From positions 496,001-560,000 of the forward strand of contig NZ_JAUHQA010000001.1 of the NCBI RefSeq assembly GCF_030418295.1: 64,000 nucleotides of DNA, given 5' to 3'. Each line of letters begins with the position of its first letter. The first letter of the stretch is position 1. Under the pieces are notes generated by a model. It did not search any database. It saw nothing but the letters and a program-made list of their open reading frames with translations, and was not told where the DNA came from. This DNA is from Demequina muriae (GTDB lineage: Bacteria; Actinomycetota; Actinomycetes; Actinomycetales; Demequinaceae). A program made the position numbers and the translations under genes. Below, in pieces: positions 24,634 through 34,908 of the stretch.

Positions 24634-25925
24634 TGGGACTGCCGAGGGTTGAGGTGATTCCTGACTCGCGGTAACGAGGGTCGCTGCTGGAAGGATGTTC
24701 CTCATGCCAGAAGCGTTTCCGAAGGAGTCCAGGGAGGACGTGCTCAGGGTTGCCCGCAACCGGGGACCGGACACGTCGGTCGAGCAGATCGCGAGAGATT
24801 TCGGGATCTCGTCAACGTGTCTGCAGCGGTGGATCAAGCAGGAGGCGGTTGATGAGGGCCGTGGGGTCGGCGTGAGCACTGATCAGTCTGCTGAGAGCAG
24901 TGAACTGCGTCGCCAGAACCGGTTGCTCGAGCAATAAGACGAGGTGCTTCGGCGCACGGCAGCGTATCTCTCGCAGGCCAACCTCAAGCTCAGTGGTTCC
25001 CCAAAATGATGTACCTGCTCGTCCGCGAGCGGGCCGCGCAGAGGGCGCCCGTGAGGGTGCCGGTCGCGGTGACGTGCCGGGTGCTGAAGATCGCCAAGCA
25101 GCCCTACTACCGGTGGCTCAAGGACCCTGTGTCGGACCGGGACTGGGTGGATGCTCACCTGGCCAACGCAGCGTTCGCCATCCATCACGACGACCCGGCG
25201 TTCGGATACCGGTTCATCGCTGACGAGCTCGCTGACGGTGGCTTCACGGCGTCGGAGCGCGGGGCGTGGCGGGGTGCTCTGAGCATGCCATCACGTCGAT
25301 CATCCAGCGCAAGCGTCGTGGGAAGACCGGCAGGGTCGGTCCACCGGTGCACGACGACCTCGTGCAGCGGGCGTTCAATTCGGACGAGCCTGATCGGTTG
25401 TGGCTGACGGAAATCACGGAACATTGGACCGGCACTGGCAAGTTCTATCTCTGTGCCGTCAACGACGTGTTCTCCAACCGGATCGTGGGCTACTCGATCG
25501 ACGCGCGCATGACGTCCGACCTTGCCGTCAACGCCCTCAGGACGGCGGTCCAGCGACGCCGCCCGGCCGGTCCTGTGACAGTGCGTTCGGACCGTGGGAG
25601 CCAGTATCGATCGCGCAAATACCAGCACGAACTCAACCGCCACGGCCTCGTCGGATCCATGGGCCGCGTCGGTGCCGCGGGCGACAGTGCCGCCATGGAA
25701 TCCTTCTTCGCACTACCGCAGAAGAACGTCCTGAACAGCCAGTCGTGGGCCACCCGCGAGCAACTGCGCACCGCGATGGTGACCTGGATCGAACGGACAT
25801 ATCACCGCCGTCGACGACAGCGCGCCCTAGACCGATTGGCGCCCATTGAGTTTGAGACCACCATGGCGCCATAGGTCGCCCACGCGGCCCAACCTACCGA
25901 GTCACCAAGACCCTCAGCAGTCCCA
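24634..25925 (+). mobile_element. Degenerate IS3-family insertion sequence
   Basis: The element is framed by imperfect 24-bp terminal inverted repeats: TGGGACTGCcGAGGGTtgaGGTGA at 24634-24657, and the complement of TGGGACTGCtGAGGGTcttGGTGA at 25902-25925 (20 of 24 match). They begin with TG and end with CA, as is typical for IS3. No target-site duplication is obvious. Inside are OrfA/OrfB-type transposase frames, both damaged. Confidence 0.8.
24704..25874 (+). pseudogene. IS3-family transposase (OrfA/OrfB), inactivated
   Basis: OrfA (24704-24937) has the helix-turn-helix VEQIARDFGISSTCLQRWIK and the leucine-zipper start LRRQNRLLEQ. It stops at TAA where relatives continue with E-x-EVLRR; the lost text (DEVLRRTAAYLSQANLKL) can still be read after the stop. 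OrfB starts near 25006 (VPVAVTCRVLKIAKQPYYRW), loses frame near 25270, and resumes with CSEHAITSIIQRKRRGK to end at 25874. In the DDE triad the first Asp is Glu (WLTEITEHW); the second (VRSDRGSQY) and the Glu (AAMESFF) remain. Three lesions make transposition unlikely. Confidence 0.85.
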
Positions 25926-27530: not shown

Positions 27531-27571
27531 ACGTCGGGGTGACAGGATTTGAACCTGCGACCCTCTGCTCC
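27531..27571 (+). repeat. Proximal attachment-site copy (41-bp direct repeat)
   Basis: Identical to 24061-24101 and overlapping the 3' half of the intact tRNA-Pro gene. Confidence 0.9.
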
Positions 27572-27607
27572 CAAAGCAGATGCGCTACCAAGCTGCGCTA
27601 CACCCCG
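27534..27607 (-). tRNA. tRNA-Pro (anticodon TGG)
   Basis: On the minus strand the gene folds as a full cloverleaf. The acceptor arm is CGGGGTG/CACCCCG with discriminator A; the anticodon loop TTTGGGA gives anticodon TGG; the T arm contains GGTTCAAATCC. No CCA is encoded. Its 3' end is the integration target of the adjacent island. Confidence 0.96.
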
Positions 27608-27706: not shown

Positions 27707-27780
27707 GCGGGTGTAGCTCAATGGTAGAGCCTCAGTCTTCCAAACTGATGGTGCGGGTTCGATTCCCGTCACCCGCTCCA
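27707..27780 (+). tRNA. tRNA-Gly (anticodon TCC)
   Basis: The acceptor stem is GCGGGTG/CACCCGC with discriminator T and an encoded CCA. The anticodon loop CTTCCAA gives anticodon TCC, and the T arm has GGTTCGATTCC. Confidence 0.96.
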
Positions 27781-28341: not shown

Positions 28342-28812
28342 CTAGGTACGCCCGAGAGCCTCCGCCGCTCGTGCGATGTCGTCGAGGTCCCGGGTCAGCG
28401 CCTTCTCTGAGGCCTTGCGTCCCAGCGCTCCGAACAGCGCCCACGCCAGCCGCTGGCCAAGCGAAGGGTTCACGGTCTCGCCGGTGAACGCCACGCTGAG
28501 GAGCGTTCCGAGCCCGCGCGGCTCACACGTGAACACCGTGGAGTAGCGAGTGCCACTCGACTCGGCTTCGATAGTGGTCGACCGGGGTGCATCGACCGCT
28601 GCCACCCACATCTCCTCGGACGCCTCTTTGCCGAGCATCCGACGAGTCTCGCGCCACCGCACGCCCACGTCGTAGCCCTCGCCCTCGAGACGCTCGATCG
28701 AGATCACGCCCGAGAGCACCTCGGCCGCGCCGTCGATGTCCGTGATGACGCCCCAGACCTCGCGGGGGTCCGCCTTGATCTCCCGCTGCGCGAGCACTGT
28801 CGACACTGCCAT
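28342..28812 (-). CDS. SRPBCC-family lipid/ligand-binding-fold protein
   Basis: A 156-aa protein with the START/SRPBCC plan: an N-terminal strand (VLAQREIKADPREVWGVITD), antiparallel strands with GYDVGVRWRETRRM, and a long C-terminal helix (LGRKASEKALTRDLDDIARA). Such polyketide-cyclase-like proteins bind hydrophobic ligands in a cavity; no specific substrate is evident. ATG 28812 has AAAGGAG upstream. Confidence 0.82.
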   Translation of the reverse strand: MAVSTVLAQREIKADPREVWGVITDIDGAAEVLSGVISIERLEGEGYDVGVRWRETRRMLGKEASEEMWVAAVDAPRSTTIEAESSGTRYSTVFTCEPRGLGTLLSVAFTGETVNPSLGQRLAWALFGALGRKASEKALTRDLDDIARAAEALGRT

Positions 28813-28893
28813 GGTTCCGCTCCTTTGCCGCCTGCGCGGCTCGGTTTCACCCTAGACCCCGCCCGCTGCGCCGTCCTCCCGAGCCCGCGGTTC

Positions 28894-28923
28894 TTGCTCC
28901 CGCCCGCGCATCGGCGCTACTCT
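28894..28923 (+). promoter_or_regulatory. Predicted promoter of the cysteine leader-cysK operon
   Basis: A -35-like TTGCTC (28894-28899) and a -10-like TACTCT (28918-28923) are separated by 18 bases. Transcription would start near 28930, giving a short leader with an AAAGG ribosome site at 28941-28945. The spacer contains a near-match (gcgcatcggcg) to the over-represented motif. Confidence 0.5.
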
Positions 28924-28953
28924 GGCAGACGTCCGCACAGAAAGGTCAGCGAG

Positions 28954-29046
28954 ATGAGCACCGAGAACAGCGCCTACGCGCCGTTCTCGCCTGCCCCGCT
29001 GATGTGTGCGACCCTCCGCAGCTGCATGTGCTGCTGCTGTCTGTAG
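28954..29046 (+). CDS. Polycysteine leader peptide upstream of cysK
   Basis: A 30-codon frame begins at ATG 28954, eight bases after AAAGG, and ends at TAG 29044-29046. The product ends in a cysteine run, [12 protein letters not shown], after a neutral N-terminus with one more Cys. cysK begins 133 bases downstream on the same strand. In mycobacteria, polycysteine short ORFs upstream of sulfur genes act as cysteine-responsive attenuators: ribosomes stall on Cys codons when cysteine is scarce. Location and composition support the same role here, which is inference. Small hairpins follow at 29060-29076 and 29143-29155. Confidence 0.8.
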
Positions 29047-29059
29047 AGCGCTAGCGCGC

Positions 29060-29155
29060 GCCCGCCACGAGCGGGCTCGATGCACGCCAGCGCTCGCCCC
29101 GGTATCGAATCCCGATGCACTCCTGTTGTTCTCACCGGACACGCCCTCTCAGGGC
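29060..29155 (+). promoter_or_regulatory. Hairpins between the leader peptide and cysK
   Basis: A 6-bp stem, gcccgc-cacga-gcgggc, lies at 29060-29076, 14 bases past the leader stop. A second stem, gccct-ctc-agggc, lies at 29143-29155, 25 bases before the cysK start. They could take part in attenuation or in hiding the AAGGAAG site of cysK. No classical U-run terminator is present. Confidence 0.35.
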
Positions 29156-29179
29156 CTCATCACCGAAGGAAGACCACTC

Positions 29180-30115
29180 ATGGCAAGGATTTTCGAGGAC
29201 GCTACGGCCCTCATCGGCAACACTCCCCTGGTCAAGATCAACGCTCTCGCCGAAGGCGCCGGCGCGACCGTGCTCGGCAAGCTCGAGTTCTACAACCCCG
29301 CGAACTCCGTGAAGGACCGCCTGGGCGTCGCGATCGTCGACGCCGCTGAGAAGTCGGGCGACCTCCAGCCGGGCGGCACCATCGTCGAGGCGACCTCGGG
29401 CAACACCGGCATCGCGCTCGCGATGGTCGGCGCCGCTCGCGGCTACCACGTCGTGCTGGCGATGCCCGAGACGATGTCGAAGGAGCGCCGCGCGCTGCTG
29501 CGGGCCTTCGGAGCCGAGCTCATCCTCACCCCTGGACCCGAGGGAATGAAGGGCGCCGTCGAGGCGGCGAACAAGATCGCCGAGGAGCGTCCCGGCTCGG
29601 TGCTCGCGCGGCAGTTCGCCAACGAGGCCAACCCCGAGATCCACCGCCGCACCACGGCCGAGGAGATCTGGAACGACACCGACGGCGAAGTCGACATCGT
29701 CGTCGCCGGCATCGGCACCGGTGGCACCATCACCGGCGTGGGCGAGGTCCTGAAGGCACGCAAGCCCAGCATCCAGATCATCGCGGTGGAGCCGGCCGAG
29801 AGCCCCATCCTGAACGGCGGCGAGCCCGGCCCGCACAAGATCCAGGGCATCGGCGCGAACTTCGTGCCCGAGATCCTCAACACCGAGATCTACGATGAGG
29901 TCATCGACGTCGACTCCGAGACCTCGGTGGCGACCGCCCGTGCCGCGGCTCGCAAGGAGGGCCTCCTGGTGGGCATCTCCTCGGGTGCGGCGCTGCACGC
30001 GGCCATCGAGGTCGCCAAGCGTCCCGAGAACGCCGGCAAGACCATCGTCACCATCATCCCGTCGTTCGGCGAGCGGTACCTCTCCTCGGTGCTCTACGCC
30101 GACCTGATGGACTGA
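29180..30115 (+). CDS. cysK: Cysteine synthase (O-acetylserine sulfhydrylase)
   Basis: A 311-aa PLP enzyme that makes cysteine from O-acetylserine and sulfide. The PLP lysine is in [11 protein letters not shown], the substrate loop is TSGNTGIAL and the phosphate-binding loop is [10 protein letters not shown]. Length and motifs are typical of CysK. ATG 29180 follows AAGGAAG. It is preceded by the polycysteine leader and followed at 25 bases by cysE, so both biosynthetic steps lie under the same likely control. Confidence 0.97.
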
Positions 30116-30140
30116 CCGAGCACGAGAGGCCCGTCCCCGT

Positions 30141-30806
30141 ATGTCTGACCACCCTGGATTCTTGAGCCTCGCGCTCGAGGACATCCGCACCGCCATGAGA
30201 CGCGACCCTGCGGCGCGCTCGTGGATCGTCATCGCGTTGTCGTATCAGGGGGTCCACGCCATCTGGCACCACCGTGCCGCTCACTGGTTGTGGAATCACG
30301 GTCTGCGCACCTACGGTCGGCTCTGGTCTCAGCACGCCCGCCGTCGCACCGGGATCGAGATCCATCCCGGTGCGACGCTGGGGCGTCGCGTCTTCATCGA
30401 CCACGGCATGGGCGTGGTGATCGGCGAGACCGCCGTGGTCGGCAACGACGTGCTGCTCTTCCACGGCGTGACGCTCGGCGGCACCACCATGAGCCCTGGC
30501 AAGCGCCACCCCACCGTCGGCGACCGGGTGGTCATCGGCGCAGGCGCCAAGGTCCTCGGGCCGGTGCACATCGGCTGCGATGCGCGGATCGGCGCGAATG
30601 CCGTGCTGGTCAAGGACGTCCCCGATGGGGCGACCGCGGTGGGCATCCCGGCGAAGATCCGCGAGCACCCCAGCTCGCGTGAAGCGGGCACCGCAGCGTC
30701 GTCGATCGACGCGGGTGATTCGTACCGGCACCCGGACCCGGATGCCCTGCCGGAGGGCGCCGTCTCGCATCATGAGCAGCGCGAACCGGCGATGTATTAC
30801 ATCTAG
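30141..30806 (+). CDS. cysE: Serine O-acetyltransferase
   Basis: A 221-aa EpsC-type serine acetyltransferase. A short helical N-terminus ([20 protein letters not shown]) precedes a left-handed beta-helix with [39 protein letters not shown] and [13 protein letters not shown]. It supplies O-acetylserine to CysK. The last residues are MYYI; in CysE the C-terminal Ile inserts into the CysK active site to form the cysteine synthase complex, and that Ile is kept here after a long tail. It lies in an operon with cysK and is followed by a terminator cluster. Confidence 0.96.
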
Positions 30807-30911
30807 TCGCGGAAATTTCTTCGCGCGCCTCTGTCGCGAGCCTCGCGAAAGCGCTAGCCTGACAGAAGTTTCAGACAACCTAGACCTGGCGTGCCCCTCA
30901 GCCGCGCCACG

Positions 30912-30950
30912 GACGACGGGCCCCTCGCATATGGCGGGGGGCCCGTTGTC
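30912..30950 (+). terminator. Terminator hairpin 1 after cysE
   Basis: The stem gacgacgggcccctcgc pairs with gcggggggcccgttgtc around a short loop (atatg), with two mismatches. It lies 105 bases past cysE. Confidence 0.6.
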
Positions 30951-30987
30951 ACGTCTGGACCTGCGCCCCACGCGGCCGGACATGACA

Positions 30988-31017
30988 ACGGGCCCCCGCC
31001 GTGCGGCGAGGGCCCGT
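30988..31017. terminator. Terminator hairpin 2 between cysE and dps
   Basis: The stem acgggcccccgcc pairs with ggcgagggcccgt around gtgc. A third small stem (gagtccc/gggactc) follows at 31018-31042. Its left arm can also pair with the right arm of hairpin 1, giving an alternative fold. It can serve the convergent dps gene. Confidence 0.6.
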
Positions 31018-31099
31018 GAGTCCCGAGGGGGGTCGGGGACTCGTCCCGGGAGGGGACAGTGTCAGCGCCGTGAACCGAACCCGGTCACGACTGGCGCCA

Positions 31100-31579
31100 T
31101 CAGGAGGCGAAGGCCCGGAGCATCCAGGCCGTCTCCTCGTGGAAGTCGAGGCGCCCGTTGTAGAGGTCTGCGGTCGCGCCGTCGCCGGCCTCGTCCGCGG
31201 CCTCCGACAGGGGCCGGATCGCCGCGGCGATGGCCTCGTGGTCGCGCTGCAGGTTCTTCACCATGGTCATGGCGTCGGACGCGGGCTCGTGGTCCTTGAG
31301 AGTCGCGAGCTCGAGCATCTCCGCCATCGAGCCAGGCGCCTCCACGCCGAGCGCACGCATGCGCTCCGCAAGGTCATCTGCCGCGAGGAAGAGTGCGTTG
31401 TACTGCTCTTCGAGCATGAGGTGCAGCGAGCGGAAGTGAGGTCCCGTGACGTTCCAGTGGTAGCCCTGGGTCTTCAGGTACAGGGTGAACGTGTCGGCCA
31501 GCGCCTGCCCGAGTCCTGCATTGATGGACTTGAGGTCCTCTTCCTTGATACCGATGTCGGGACTTGACTTGGTCGCCAT
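31100..31579 (-). CDS. dps: Dps-family DNA-binding ferritin-like protein
   Basis: A 159-aa protein of the Dps miniferritin family, which stores iron and shields DNA in starvation or oxidative stress. The ferroxidase signature is present: YLKTQGYHWNVTGPHFRSLH then LEEQYNALFLAADDLAERMRALG, including the His, Asp and Glu positions. It forms a dodecamer in the cytoplasm. The start is ATG 31579 (MATKSSPDIG) with AAGGAGA upstream. It converges on the cysE terminators. Confidence 0.94.
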   Translation of the reverse strand: MATKSSPDIGIKEEDLKSINAGLGQALADTFTLYLKTQGYHWNVTGPHFRSLHLMLEEQYNALFLAADDLAERMRALGVEAPGSMAEMLELATLKDHEPASDAMTMVKNLQRDHEAIAAAIRPLSEAADEAGDGATADLYNGRLDFHEETAWMLRAFAS

Positions 31580-31696: not shown

Positions 31697-32206
31697 ATGA
31701 GCATCAAGTTGCCCGGACAGCCGTCAGGCGAGGCCTGCCCCACCCCAGGATCCGCTGGCTCCACGCACGCACTCGACGACGACGCGCTGGTGGATCTGCT
31801 GGCTGGCGCGCGAACCGTCGCCGTCGTCGGCGCATCGCCGAACGACCACCGCACCAGCTACTCGATCGCCGCGTGGCTCATGACGCGCACGCCGTTCGAG
31901 GTCTACCTCGTCAACCCGATGGCCGAAGGCCAGGAGATCCGCGGCCACGGCTTCTACTCGTCGCTCGCCGAGCTGCCCGTGGTCCCTGACATCGTGGACG
32001 TGTTCCGGCGCTCCGAGCACGTGCCTCCCGTGGCGGACGACGCGATCGCCGTGGGTGCGCGCGCACTGTGGATGCAGCTCGGCGTCGCCCACGCGGAGTC
32101 GGCAGCGCTCGCGCGCGATGCCGGACTCGATGTCGTCGAGAACCGCTGCATCAAGGTGGAGTACGAGCGCCTCCGCGACGCCGTGGAGCAGGCCGCAGCC
32201 GAGTAG
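31697..32206 (+). CDS. CoA-binding Rossmann-fold protein, YccU family
   Basis: A 169-aa YccU-like protein. The CoA-binding Rossmann motif is TVAVVGASPNDHRTSYSIA, followed by YLVNPMAEGQEIRG, DIVDVFRRSEHVPPVADDAI, GARALWMQLGV and a final DVVENRCIKVEYERL. The family binds CoA; its role is unclear. ATG 31697 has GGAGG only one base away, so the start may instead be the ATG at 31667, or the transcript may be leaderless from TACGTT. Confidence 0.85.
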   Translation: MSIKLPGQPSGEACPTPGSAGSTHALDDDALVDLLAGARTVAVVGASPNDHRTSYSIAAWLMTRTPFEVYLVNPMAEGQEIRGHGFYSSLAELPVVPDIVDVFRRSEHVPPVADDAIAVGARALWMQLGVAHAESAALARDAGLDVVENRCIKVEYERLRDAVEQAAAE

Positions 32207-32283
32207 CAGGTCCGCTCCCAGCCGCACTGAACCTCGCCCCGCTGCGCGAGCGCAAAGTCGCCGTCTGGTGCCACAATCGTGGC

Positions 32284-33555
32284 GTGACCACACCTCAGGG
32301 CTATCACGCCCTCTCCGTTGACCATTCCCGTGCCGCCGAGGTCCTGCACGTCGACGCCTTCGCCTTCGCGTTCACGGTCCCGGAGAAGGACGCCGGGTTC
32401 ATCCACGACATCCTGCCGTGGGACCGCACGCGGGCGATCGAGGTCGTCGATCCGCTGCGCGGGCGCGTCGGCACGCTTGCCGCGGTCCACGCGTCGTTCG
32501 CGTTCAAGACGCGAGTGCCGGGCGGCCGCGAGGTGGCGACCGCAGGTCTCAGCTGGGTGGGCGTCCACCCCGGACATCGCCGCCGCGGGCTGCTGCGCGC
32601 GATGATCCACGACCACTTCTCCCGGTCCCTGGCTCGCGGCGAGGTCATCTCGACACTGTTCGCTGCGGAGACCCAGATCTACCAGCGGTTCGGCTACGGC
32701 CTGGCGGCGACCGAGGCACGCGTCCAGCTGGGCCGAGGCGTCGACATCCGCCCGCTCGAGGGCTCGGACGCTCTCTCGGTCGAGATCGACTCCGCTTCTC
32801 TCGAGCGCCACGGCGACGAGATCCGCTCGATCCAGTCGCGCATGGCCCGGCCCGGCACCGTCACGACTCTCGCACCGCAGACCTTGGCCGACATCCTCAT
32901 GGACCTCGAGATCGACCGCGAGGGCGGCGAGGAGCTGCGGATCGCGGTCGTGCGCGATGGCGCGGACCCCGTCGCATGGGCGCTGTTCCAGCGCAAGGGC
33001 GACTGGGGAGACTCCGGACCCGACGGCAAGGTCAGGGTGCGGGCGTGGGGCGCGCTCGACGCGGCGTCCACCGTGCGCCTCTGGGGGGTGCTCGTCGACT
33101 TCGACCTGATGGCGACCACCTACGCGGGCAAGTTCGCGCTCGACGACCCGCTCCTCCTCCGCCTCAAGGACATCCGCTCGGCGAAGGTCGCAGTGGCCGA
33201 CAATCTGTGGGTCCGCATCCTCGACGTCGCCGAGGCGCTGCAGGCGCGCGGATACGCCGCAGAATGCGATGTCACGATCCATCTCGAGGACGCGTTCCTG
33301 CCGCTCAACGCTGGCGTGTGGAGGATCCACGTGGCCAGCGGCGAGGCGCGCGTCACACGGGACGACGGCGCGGACCCGGCCAGCGCGGACCTCCGGATCG
33401 ACATCCAGGAGCTGGGGGCCGCGTACCTGGGCGGCACCACCATCACGGAGCTGCTGCGCGCGGGGCTCGTCGACGAGCGCACTCCCGGCACTGCGGCAGA
33501 GCTGTCCCGAGCGATGGCCTCGGACATCAAGCCCGTCGCGAACTTCGGGTTCTAG
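32284..33555 (+). CDS. Eis-like GNAT acetyltransferase with sterol-carrier-like C-domain (copy 1)
   Basis: A 423-aa Eis-family protein: an N-terminal GNAT domain with the acetyl-CoA loop VGVHPGHRRRGLLRAM, a second GNAT-like domain, and a C-terminal SCP2-like domain (AFLPLNAGVWRIHVASGEA). Eis enzymes acetylate amines, including aminoglycosides and other amines, as hexamers. The C-terminal carboxylate catalytic residue is seen as the final Phe (VANFGF). GTG 32284 has no Shine-Dalgarno; CACAAT lies six bases upstream, so it is probably leaderless. A paralogue follows 90 bases later; substrate unknown. Confidence 0.88.
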   Translation: MTTPQGYHALSVDHSRAAEVLHVDAFAFAFTVPEKDAGFIHDILPWDRTRAIEVVDPLRGRVGTLAAVHASFAFKTRVPGGREVATAGLSWVGVHPGHRRRGLLRAMIHDHFSRSLARGEVISTLFAAETQIYQRFGYGLAATEARVQLGRGVDIRPLEGSDALSVEIDSASLERHGDEIRSIQSRMARPGTVTTLAPQTLADILMDLEIDREGGEELRIAVVRDGADPVAWALFQRKGDWGDSGPDGKVRVRAWGALDAASTVRLWGVLVDFDLMATTYAGKFALDDPLLLRLKDIRSAKVAVADNLWVRILDVAEALQARGYAAECDVTIHLEDAFLPLNAGVWRIHVASGEARVTRDDGADPASADLRIDIQELGAAYLGGTTITELLRAGLVDERTPGTAAELSRAMASDIKPVANFGF

Positions 33556-33645: not shown

Positions 33646-34908
33646 ATGAAGAAGGCAGAGGGTTACCAGTCCATCACCGTCCCCGAGGCGCGACTCGACG
33701 AGTTCTTCCAGGTGGTCCAGTGGGCCTTCGTGGGCGAGTGGCTCATCGAGGACCGGCAGGACTACATCGACGCTCTGCCCGTGGAGCGGGCCCGCGGCCT
33801 CGAGGTCACGGACGAGCGTCGCGGCGCCGTCGGCGAGATCGCTGCCGTGCACGCGAGCTTCGGCACCGAGATGATCACCCCCGGAGGCCGTCGTGTCAGC
33901 GCGGCGGGACTGTCCTGGCTGGGCGTCCACCCGTCGCACCGCCGTCGGGGCCTGATGACCGAGATGATGCACGACCACTTCCGTCGGTGCCTCGAGCGCG
34001 GTGAGGCAGTGAGCACGCTGTACGCGATGGAGGCGGAGATCTACGCCCGCTTCGGATACGGCATGGGCGCGCAGACGGTCAAGGCGTCGATCCCGCGCGG
34101 CCCTCGCATGTGGAAGGTCGAAGGCGCCGACGAGCTCACGGTGCGACTCGAGCGTGCGGACTTCGATGCCCATGACCAGTTGGTCGCAGACCTGCAGGCC
34201 AAGCTCACCCGTCCTGGCACGATCCTCAATCCCGTGGGCTCCGGCCGCAACGCGCGCTTCACGGACCCGCTCGGCAACCGCAAGGGCATGGAGAAGTGGC
34301 GCATCGCCATCGTCGAGGACCGCGGCGAGCCCGTCGCCTACGCGTTCTTCCGCCGCAAGGCCGATTCTGACATCGGCATCCACGACGGGATCTGCCAGGT
34401 GCGCGAGCACGGTGCGCTCACTCCCGCCGCCTCGCAGCGACTGTGGGAGACGCTGACCGACTTCGACCTCGTCGAGACCACCTACACCGAGAATCTCGCC
34501 ACCGACGATCCCCTGCTGCATCAGCTCAAGGACGCCCGCGGGGCTCGCTCCAAGGTGATCGACAACCTGTGGGTGCGCCTGCTCGACGTCCCGACGGCGC
34601 TCCAGTCACGCGAGTACTTCCACGACTGCGACGTGACCGTGGGGCTCACCGACAAGCACGTCCCCGACAACGCTGGCACATGGCGCATCGTCGTCCGCGA
34701 CGGAGAGGCCACCGTCACCCGCGCCGAGGGCGCAGTGGCAGACCTGACCATGGACGTGCGCCACCTGTCCACCGTCTACTTGGGCGGCACCAGCGTCGAG
34801 TCGCTCGCCGCCGCCGGCCAGGTGCTCGAGCACACTCCTGGCCAGGCCCGCGAACTTGCAGTCGCGATGATGTCGCCTGTCGCTCCCCTGGCGAACTGGG
34901 ACTTCTAG
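33646..34908 (+). CDS. Eis-like GNAT acetyltransferase with sterol-carrier-like C-domain (copy 2)
   Basis: A 420-aa paralogue of the preceding gene with the same three-domain plan: GNAT loop LGVHPSHRRRGLMTEMMHDH, second GNAT-like domain, and an SCP2-like end (VPDNAGTWRIVVRDGEA) with terminal ANWDF. The copies are diverged, so the duplication is old. ATG 33646 lacks a spaced Shine-Dalgarno. A long hairpin follows at 34931 and separates it from the convergent rpiB gene. Substrate is not predictable. Confidence 0.88.
   Translation: MKKAEGYQSITVPEARLDEFFQVVQWAFVGEWLIEDRQDYIDALPVERARGLEVTDERRGAVGEIAAVHASFGTEMITPGGRRVSAAGLSWLGVHPSHRRRGLMTEMMHDHFRRCLERGEAVSTLYAMEAEIYARFGYGMGAQTVKASIPRGPRMWKVEGADELTVRLERADFDAHDQLVADLQAKLTRPGTILNPVGSGRNARFTDPLGNRKGMEKWRIAIVEDRGEPVAYAFFRRKADSDIGIHDGICQVREHGALTPAASQRLWETLTDFDLVETTYTENLATDDPLLHQLKDARGARSKVIDNLWVRLLDVPTALQSREYFHDCDVTVGLTDKHVPDNAGTWRIVVRDGEATVTRAEGAVADLTMDVRHLSTVYLGGTSVESLAAAGQVLEHTPGQARELAVAMMSPVAPLANWDF

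Follow-up and report, generated by a model that had tools for sequence, protein, structure and literature searches.

The cysK-cysE operon of Demequina muriae is preceded by a short, cysteine-rich reading frame that is probably a leader peptide: its last UGU codon would sense charged tRNA-Cys and, via a predicted hairpin on the stop codon, would allow expression of cysK-cysE during cysteine shortage. Comparison with related genomes shows conservation of the frame upstream of cysK, together with its Shine-Dalgarno (SD) site, the fixed UGU and two arms predicted to pair at the stop codon. The region lies in a stretch of 64,000 nucleotides (contig NZ_JAUHQA010000001.1, positions 496,001 to 560,000), which we call the window and to which all coordinates refer.

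The putative leader-peptide frame and its signals

The frame and cysK are located on the same strand, with 133 nt between the stop of the former and the start of the latter.

28894..28923, + strand: predicted promoter, TTGCTC (28894-28899), 18 nt, TACTCT (28918-28923); same arrangement in 40/42 Demequina leaders
28940..28945, + strand: SD sequence GAAAGG of the leader peptide, read from the sequence; SD-like site at -16 to -4 in 41/42 Demequina leaders
28954..29046, + strand: leader-peptide frame of 30 codons, from sequence and translation; counterpart in 42/42 Demequina leaders
29038..29040, + strand: TGT codon for the final Cys, penultimate sense codon of the frame and putative sensor; TGT here in 42/42 of these upstream frames
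29044-29046, + strand: stop codon TAG of the leader-peptide frame
29166..29172, + strand: SD sequence AAGGAAG of cysK, read from the sequence
29180..30115, + strand: cysK, cysteine synthase A, 311 amino acids (TIGR01139, 450.6 bits, cut-off 350.95)
30141..30806, + strand: cysE, serine O-acetyltransferase, 221 amino acids (TIGR01172, 234.7 bits, cut-off 210.65)

From its SD sequence and its conservation, the leader peptide is predicted to be translated. The transcript start is predicted near 28930, which would give the frame a 5' leader of about 24 nt. Sequence and translation agree with the initial annotation in the frame, its coordinates, its C-terminus, its SD sequence, its strand and the 133-nt gap, and the two downstream genes are indeed cysK and cysE, as both score over the cut-offs of their models. 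The annotated promoter holds in a looser form only: a scan of 28500-31500 returned no E. coli-type promoter matches, but the form TTGNNN-(16-19)-TANNNT, ending 23 to 33 nt before the frame start, is present in 40 of the 42 Demequina leaders, compared with 0.08 expected from mononucleotide shuffles. In the available excerpt of PMC8079986, promoters of Streptomyces lividans have TAnnnT as the -10 and nTGACn as the -35 element, so that the -35 element of the Demequina leaders fits the S. lividans form partially. The annotation had also set the frame apart from the leaderless mycobacterial type by its own ribosome site, and both the frequency of the SD-like site and the distance of the predicted promoter from the frame start support this.

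The closest named cysK loci are those of Demequina, with 93% identity. Shortly upstream of the cys region, two tRNA genes lie about 100 nt apart on opposite strands (27534-27607, - strand; 27707-27777, + strand). The divergent neighbor at 28342-28812 (- strand) scores below threshold against the model of the Rv0910 toxin family (29.3 bits, cut-off 100), and its product is, by eye, probably an SRPBCC-fold protein. Farther away, two open reading frames at 24695-25874 (+ strand) resemble, by eye, the two frames of an IS3-type transposase, and the adjoining frames 32068-33555 and 33646-34908 (+ strand) encode similar N-acetyltransferase-like proteins (Eis-like, by eye), apparently a tandem duplication.

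Conservation of the cysteine codons within Demequina

A cysK gene was found at E <= 1e-100 in 43 of the 44 genomes of the genus, in one of these as a partial gene, and we compared the 42 leaders that have an intact cysK start (30 + 12 loci). Every one of them contains a Cys-rich frame ending in TAG, with the stop 111 to 206 nt upstream of cysK. The frames encode 25 to 42 residues (starts chosen automatically) with 3 to 9 Cys, and position -2 is Cys in all 42 peptides. Pairwise identity amounts to 80% in the last four residues and to only 20% in residues -24 to -9. The initial annotation had named a lack of conservation of the Cys run in close relatives as the result that would speak against it; the run is kept in 42/42 leaders, while the rest of the peptide is variable.

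The Cys frame in front of cysK is, judged by these sequence comparisons, not due to chance. An ATG frame of 15 to 50 codons with at least four Cys in its last 10 residues is found in 38/42 leaders and in 0/4200 mononucleotide shuffles. Runs of four Cys codons number 23 in this genome, compared with 27 for a reversed control pattern. Three of these 23 runs sit in ATG frames of at most 50 codons, and only the frame 28954-29046 has its run at the frame end, one codon before the stop.

Codon choice adds to this picture. TGT makes up 67 of the 270 Cys codons of the Demequina frames and 8 of the 92 in 34 long open reading frames of the window, and yet the last Cys codon is TGT in every Demequina frame. 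The base after it is always C in the aligned rows, where the next codon encodes Leu, Arg, Pro or Gln. Neither this constant C (29038-29041 for the codon and the C in the window) nor the silent third-base T is explained by the peptide.

A predicted hairpin on the stop codon

The comparison added an element that was absent from the initial annotation, a predicted hairpin (stem 1) that begins within the UAG stop codon, the G of which forms the first pair.

29046..29095, + strand: stem 1, arms 29046-29055 GAGCGCUAGC and 29086-29095 GCCAGCGCUC with one A-C mismatch, predicted from folding energy and covariation
29096..29165, + strand: C-rich, G-poor stretch from stem 1 to the cysK ribosome site, 29 C and 15 G of 70 by base counts
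29102..29118, + strand: small hairpin GUAUCG/CGAUGC, the second in the leader, retained in many Demequina with changes in its pairs (alignments read by eye)

When the Demequina leaders were aligned from 15 nt before the stop to cysK, the bases around the stop were invariant (CTGTC-NN-TAGAGCG), as was a second block, GCTC, that ends 45 to 64 nt downstream. RNAalifold, applied to the unfitted alignment of the 42 leaders, predicted one helix of 8 pairs joining these two blocks. The arms are complementary in 42/42 Demequina, with at most one mismatch among the first seven pairs. Over the element as a whole the spacing of the arms varies, with hairpins of 27 to 78 nt. In free folds of the 42 whole leaders the mean probability of stem 1 was 0.87, including three leaders that scored 0 because the script missed an arm. 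Stem 1 of the window has a folding energy of -31.3 kcal/mol and a z score of -3.26, with 2 of 200 shuffles equally good; the 42 Demequina hairpins have medians of -31.3 kcal/mol and -3.66 (38 below -2), and 35 other members have a median z score of -3.58 (34 below -2). A search of the leader against Rfam gave nothing over the gathering score, the best match there having an E value of 3.8 and lying far below its own gathering score.

Within Demequina alone covariation is slight: two-sided changes occur in only 2 of the 8 pairs, with a covariation term of -0.18. In Cellulomonadaceae and other relatives the arms covary; they change together to GAGCGUC/GACGCUC and to GAGCAUUG/CAAUGCUC. Over 54 diverse rows, 96.2% of the stem-1 cells pair, compared with 90.8 +- 0.5 in shuffles, the cells changed on both sides number 26 compared with 5.9 +- 2.0, and the covariation score is 0.215 compared with 0.115 +- 0.010; slid partners pair in only 27 to 51%. 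An alignment of 52 rows, with Cellulomonadaceae added, gave a weaker signal (93.6% paired versus 91.4 +- 0.3; score 0.091 versus 0.066 +- 0.005) and no excess of pair types (7 versus 7.0 in shuffles). Since many rows end at arms picked for their complementarity, these statistics lean towards pairing, and related rows inflate such counts.

Distribution outside Demequina

We searched with two covariance models, R1 from 52 sequences and R2 from 54 diverse rows. In the genus, R1 matched 43 of 44 genomes at E < 1e-9 and the remaining one at 0.03; in the order it matched 79 of 396 genomes at E <= 0.01, belonging to 17 of 109 genera. R2 likewise matched 79 of 396 genomes of the order, in 18 of 109 genera. 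In the class, 3 of 394 genomes matched R2, none of them both new and real: the window's own genome, one already found in the order, and a locus without cysK or the motif (L197).

Thirty model matches outside Demequina were inspected. In 27 of them the match stands before cysK and behind a frame that ends in Cys, then Leu, Arg or Pro, then TAG; we traced the frame backwards from the TAG that the model had matched, and for several frames the start is GTG or can be placed at more than one codon. The other three (L192, L194 and L201) have neither cysK nor a Cys frame and are false matches. Among named cysK loci, those in which the motif CTGTC-NN-TAG precedes the gene include loci of Cellulomonas, Actinotalea, Isoptericola, Promicromonospora, Oerskovia enterophila and Antribacter. 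Outside Demequina, the constancy of TGT is partly by construction, as the models and the text search contain TGT.

The number of Cys codons is less constant than the position of the last one. One frame has a single Cys (L181) and two have two (L180 and L188), and the last Cys is always at the same place, which fits a sensor that consists of the last codon. The initial annotation had read the frame as a cysteine sensor in a further actinobacterial lineage. Conservation supports this part of its reading. The role of sensor, however, probably falls to the last Cys codon and not to the poly-Cys run, given that the frames of some relatives contain no more than one or two Cys codons.

Of 72 non-Demequina cysK loci, 23 are preceded by a short frame whose last seven residues include two or more Cys. 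Twenty-one of these belong to Cellulomonas, Actinotalea, Oerskovia, Isoptericola and allied genera, and the other two (L065 and L075) look like chance. The remaining 49 loci, including those of Agromyces, Cryobacterium, Janibacter and Tessaracoccus, have no frame that passes this filter, which misses single-Cys frames such as that of a Promicromonospora locus with the motif (L019). In Cellulosimicrobium the frames end in TGA and the arms are altered, and one Oerskovia locus ends in TGC-CGC-TAG; these loci and L019 were left out of the models. In the genome of D. muriae itself we found one R1 match and one qualifying frame among the runs of four Cys codons, and no such Cys frame in 14 kb around two genes of the PAPS-reductase family.

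RNA downstream of stem 1

Neither the window nor the high-GC members have a U-tract after stem 1. The tail is mostly GCCCC: of the 308 cells that make up its positions 2 to 5 in all 77 sequences, 262 hold C and 22 hold T. This tail of C instead of U makes plain intrinsic termination unlikely in the high-GC members. The three loci of 56 to 60% GC, which come from two genera that hold only 2 and 1 genomes, have five U in a row in one case (UUUUUC; L193, 56% GC), three in another (GUUUCC; L187, 57% GC) and none in the third (CAUACC; L195, 60% GC). One of these two genera has a second, weak model match (L210, E 0.09).

Behind stem 1, the excess of C over G, (C-G)/length, is 0.189 +- 0.056 in the 42 Demequina leaders (range, 0.04 to 0.31; window, 0.20). 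For comparison, 21 other upstream stretches taken from the window average 0.015 +- 0.081; one of them, at 0.29, exceeds the leader mean. Such C-rich, G-poor RNA is what would be expected of a Rho site. In many Demequina, the second hairpin is followed by a GCGUU- or GUGUU-like box (29102-29127 for hairpin and box). Consensus folding with the 5' arm of stem 1 blocked gave only a weak pairing of the 3' arm with this box; because we did not recognize the box by eye in other families, we do not claim a conserved antiterminator.

Proposed mechanism and alternative explanations

The footprint of a ribosome extends to 15 nt beyond the first P-site base. With this edge assumed, a ribosome that has the last UGU in its A site would cover five bases of the 5' arm and lower the median stability of the hairpin from -31.3 to -18.8 kcal/mol, whereas a ribosome one codon earlier would lower it only to -27.8 kcal/mol. 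By this predicted drop, the last Cys codon stands out from the others. The hairpin would also be held open by a ribosome at the stop codon (-15.2 kcal/mol), which implies that closing of stem 1 needs ribosome release. We therefore propose the following sequence of events. With enough cysteine, the ribosome would finish the frame and leave, stem 1 would close, and transcription would stop before cysK, probably with help, e.g., from Rho acting on the C-rich stretch behind stem 1. When cysteine is short, the ribosome would wait at the UGU and cover about half of the 5' arm, stem 1 would stay open, and RNA polymerase would read on into cysK and cysE.

The closest described mechanism is translational attenuation, in which the same cysteine sensor would act on a leader structure that masks the cysK ribosome site as long as cysteine is abundant, and stalling would free the site. 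The cysteine genes of M. smegmatis are indeed referred to as regulated by translation attenuation in the available excerpt of PMC13236596. However, exposure of the cysK ribosome site did not change consistently among three modeled states of the 42 Demequina leaders, namely, ribosome-free, occupied at the Cys codons and occupied at the stop: in these thermodynamic predictions the mean unpaired probability of the SD sequence was 0.55 in the ribosome-free state and 0.57 when the Cys codons were occupied. Moreover, 70 nt separate the end of stem 1 from the cysK SD sequence in the window, and relatives differ widely in this distance. Since the SD sequence is no more open under a stalled ribosome and stem 1 is that far away, hiding of the site is not supported, and we regard translational attenuation as unlikely. 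Together with the C-rich tail that has no U-tract, this leads us to prefer premature termination with a helper, a choice that the sequences support with moderate confidence. A helper such as Rho is probably needed because most members have no U-tract; how Rho and the hairpin would cooperate is a link that the proposal does not explain. Stem 1 might instead be a pause or processing signal that slows RNA polymerase for the ribosome to catch up, or that sets the stability of the RNA, with the real switch elsewhere in the leader. A stable hairpin without a U-tract would suit such a role, as would the second hairpin and the GCGUU box that, by eye, are kept in Demequina. Yet no second structure that could be the switch was recognized by eye outside Demequina, and stem 1 begins just where a stalled ribosome would interfere, so that we consider this role rather improbable.

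Two further explanations do without a cysteine sensor. The Cys-rich C-terminus kept in all 42 Demequina leaders could belong to a functional peptide, e.g., a metal-binding one, made from the cysK operon, but the number of Cys falls from as many as 9 to as few as 3 in Demequina and down to 1 in a relative, their spacing is not kept, and the body of the peptide is as divergent as described above (20% identity in residues -24 to -9). In fact, the peptide is less constant than the silent third base of its last Cys codon and the bases that follow the stop, which makes a peptide function very improbable. Hardly more credible is a DNA operator for a repressor of cysK, formed by the palindrome AGCGCT that occurs in both arms in the window and in most Demequina: the spacing of the arms varies with the length of the hairpins (27 to 78 nt), the arms change together in relatives, and the left arm keeps its place at the frame's stop codon.

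Premature termination governed by the last UGU thus remains our preferred reading. As a more tentative extension, possible rather than probable, the poly-Cys run might merely slow the approach of the ribosome, and the element might be a two-state attenuator without an antiterminator that occurs across Demequina, the Cellulomonadaceae and neighboring families; in high-GC genomes, a U-tract terminator would then have become a GCCCC-tailed, helper-dependent (Rho-type) stop.

Relation to known attenuators

In mycobacteria, several cysteine loci of one genome are under poly-Cys frames, and the downstream ribosome site is hidden by structure unless a ribosome stalls. The function of these leaderless frames was reportedly shown by Canestrari et al. 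in 2020. This later study of mycobacterial Cys frames is cited in PMC13236596 and PMC9094748, as their available excerpts show, and the excerpt of Shell et al. 2015 (PMC4633059) describes conserved Cys-rich leaderless frames in mycobacteria, with ribosome profiling in M. smegmatis. The Demequina element shares with this type a short Cys-rich frame that comes first in a cysteine operon and the proposed stall on Cys shortage (PMC4633059, same excerpt). In contrast, the Demequina frame has an SD sequence and a predicted 5' leader, no hiding of the downstream ribosome site is predicted, and one locus was found in this genome instead of several.

Seliverstov et al. 2005 (PMC1262725), in the portion available, describe short frames that precede cysteine genes in Mycobacterium and P. 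acnes and cbs in B. longum and that have runs of Cys codons close to their stop; they report no obvious terminator but polypyrimidine motifs, and propose Rho as one idea. The Demequina element shares with these candidates the Cys runs near the stop in front of cysteine genes and the absence of an obvious terminator. The mycobacterial leaders are described there as having no conserved hairpin that could be a terminator, whereas the Demequina element has a covarying hairpin that starts in the stop codon. The terms cysK and cysE occur 0 times in that paper, and Demequina and Cellulomonadaceae are not mentioned in the portion available. A candidate of another kind is the S. lividans metL leader before metNIQ, which the excerpt of PMC8079986 calls methionine-dependent; it ends in ARCMCRRMCAF, and its three Cys codons near the stop suggest that it could be a cysteine leader.

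In the trp and ilvB attenuators of Actinobacteria, as in the Demequina element, a hairpin closely follows the regulatory codons and would be disturbed by a ribosome stalled there. The Demequina element differs from them in having no identified antiterminator, no U-tract in its high-GC members and a hairpin that overlaps the stop codon. In tnaC, a ribosome stalled at the stop directly shields a Rho site. C-rich untranslated RNA between the leader stop and the structural gene is common to tnaC-type Rho-dependent attenuators and Demequina, but in Demequina this stretch lies beyond the hairpin.

As modeled here, the Demequina element has the traits of a leader attenuator, namely, a Cys-codon frame before biosynthetic genes and a structure placed for a stalled ribosome. 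Cys leader peptides are already known in Actinobacteria; new here are the lineage, the leadered start and the stop-codon hairpin, and because these three differ from the known cases, we regard the element as a new form of Cys leader. The literature that we searched, a scope outside which most subscription journals fall, contained no report of it in Demequina or Cellulomonas. To our knowledge, cysteine attenuation has been shown only in mycobacteria, and other actinobacterial cases are predictions without a recognized RNA structure, whereas the Demequina case provides a covarying structure outside mycobacteria. Its sensing codon and its switch would lie within about 20 nt of each other. The element offers a way to test how attenuation can work in high-GC actinobacteria in the absence of U-tract terminators, which PMC1262725 had pointed out as a gap in 2005.
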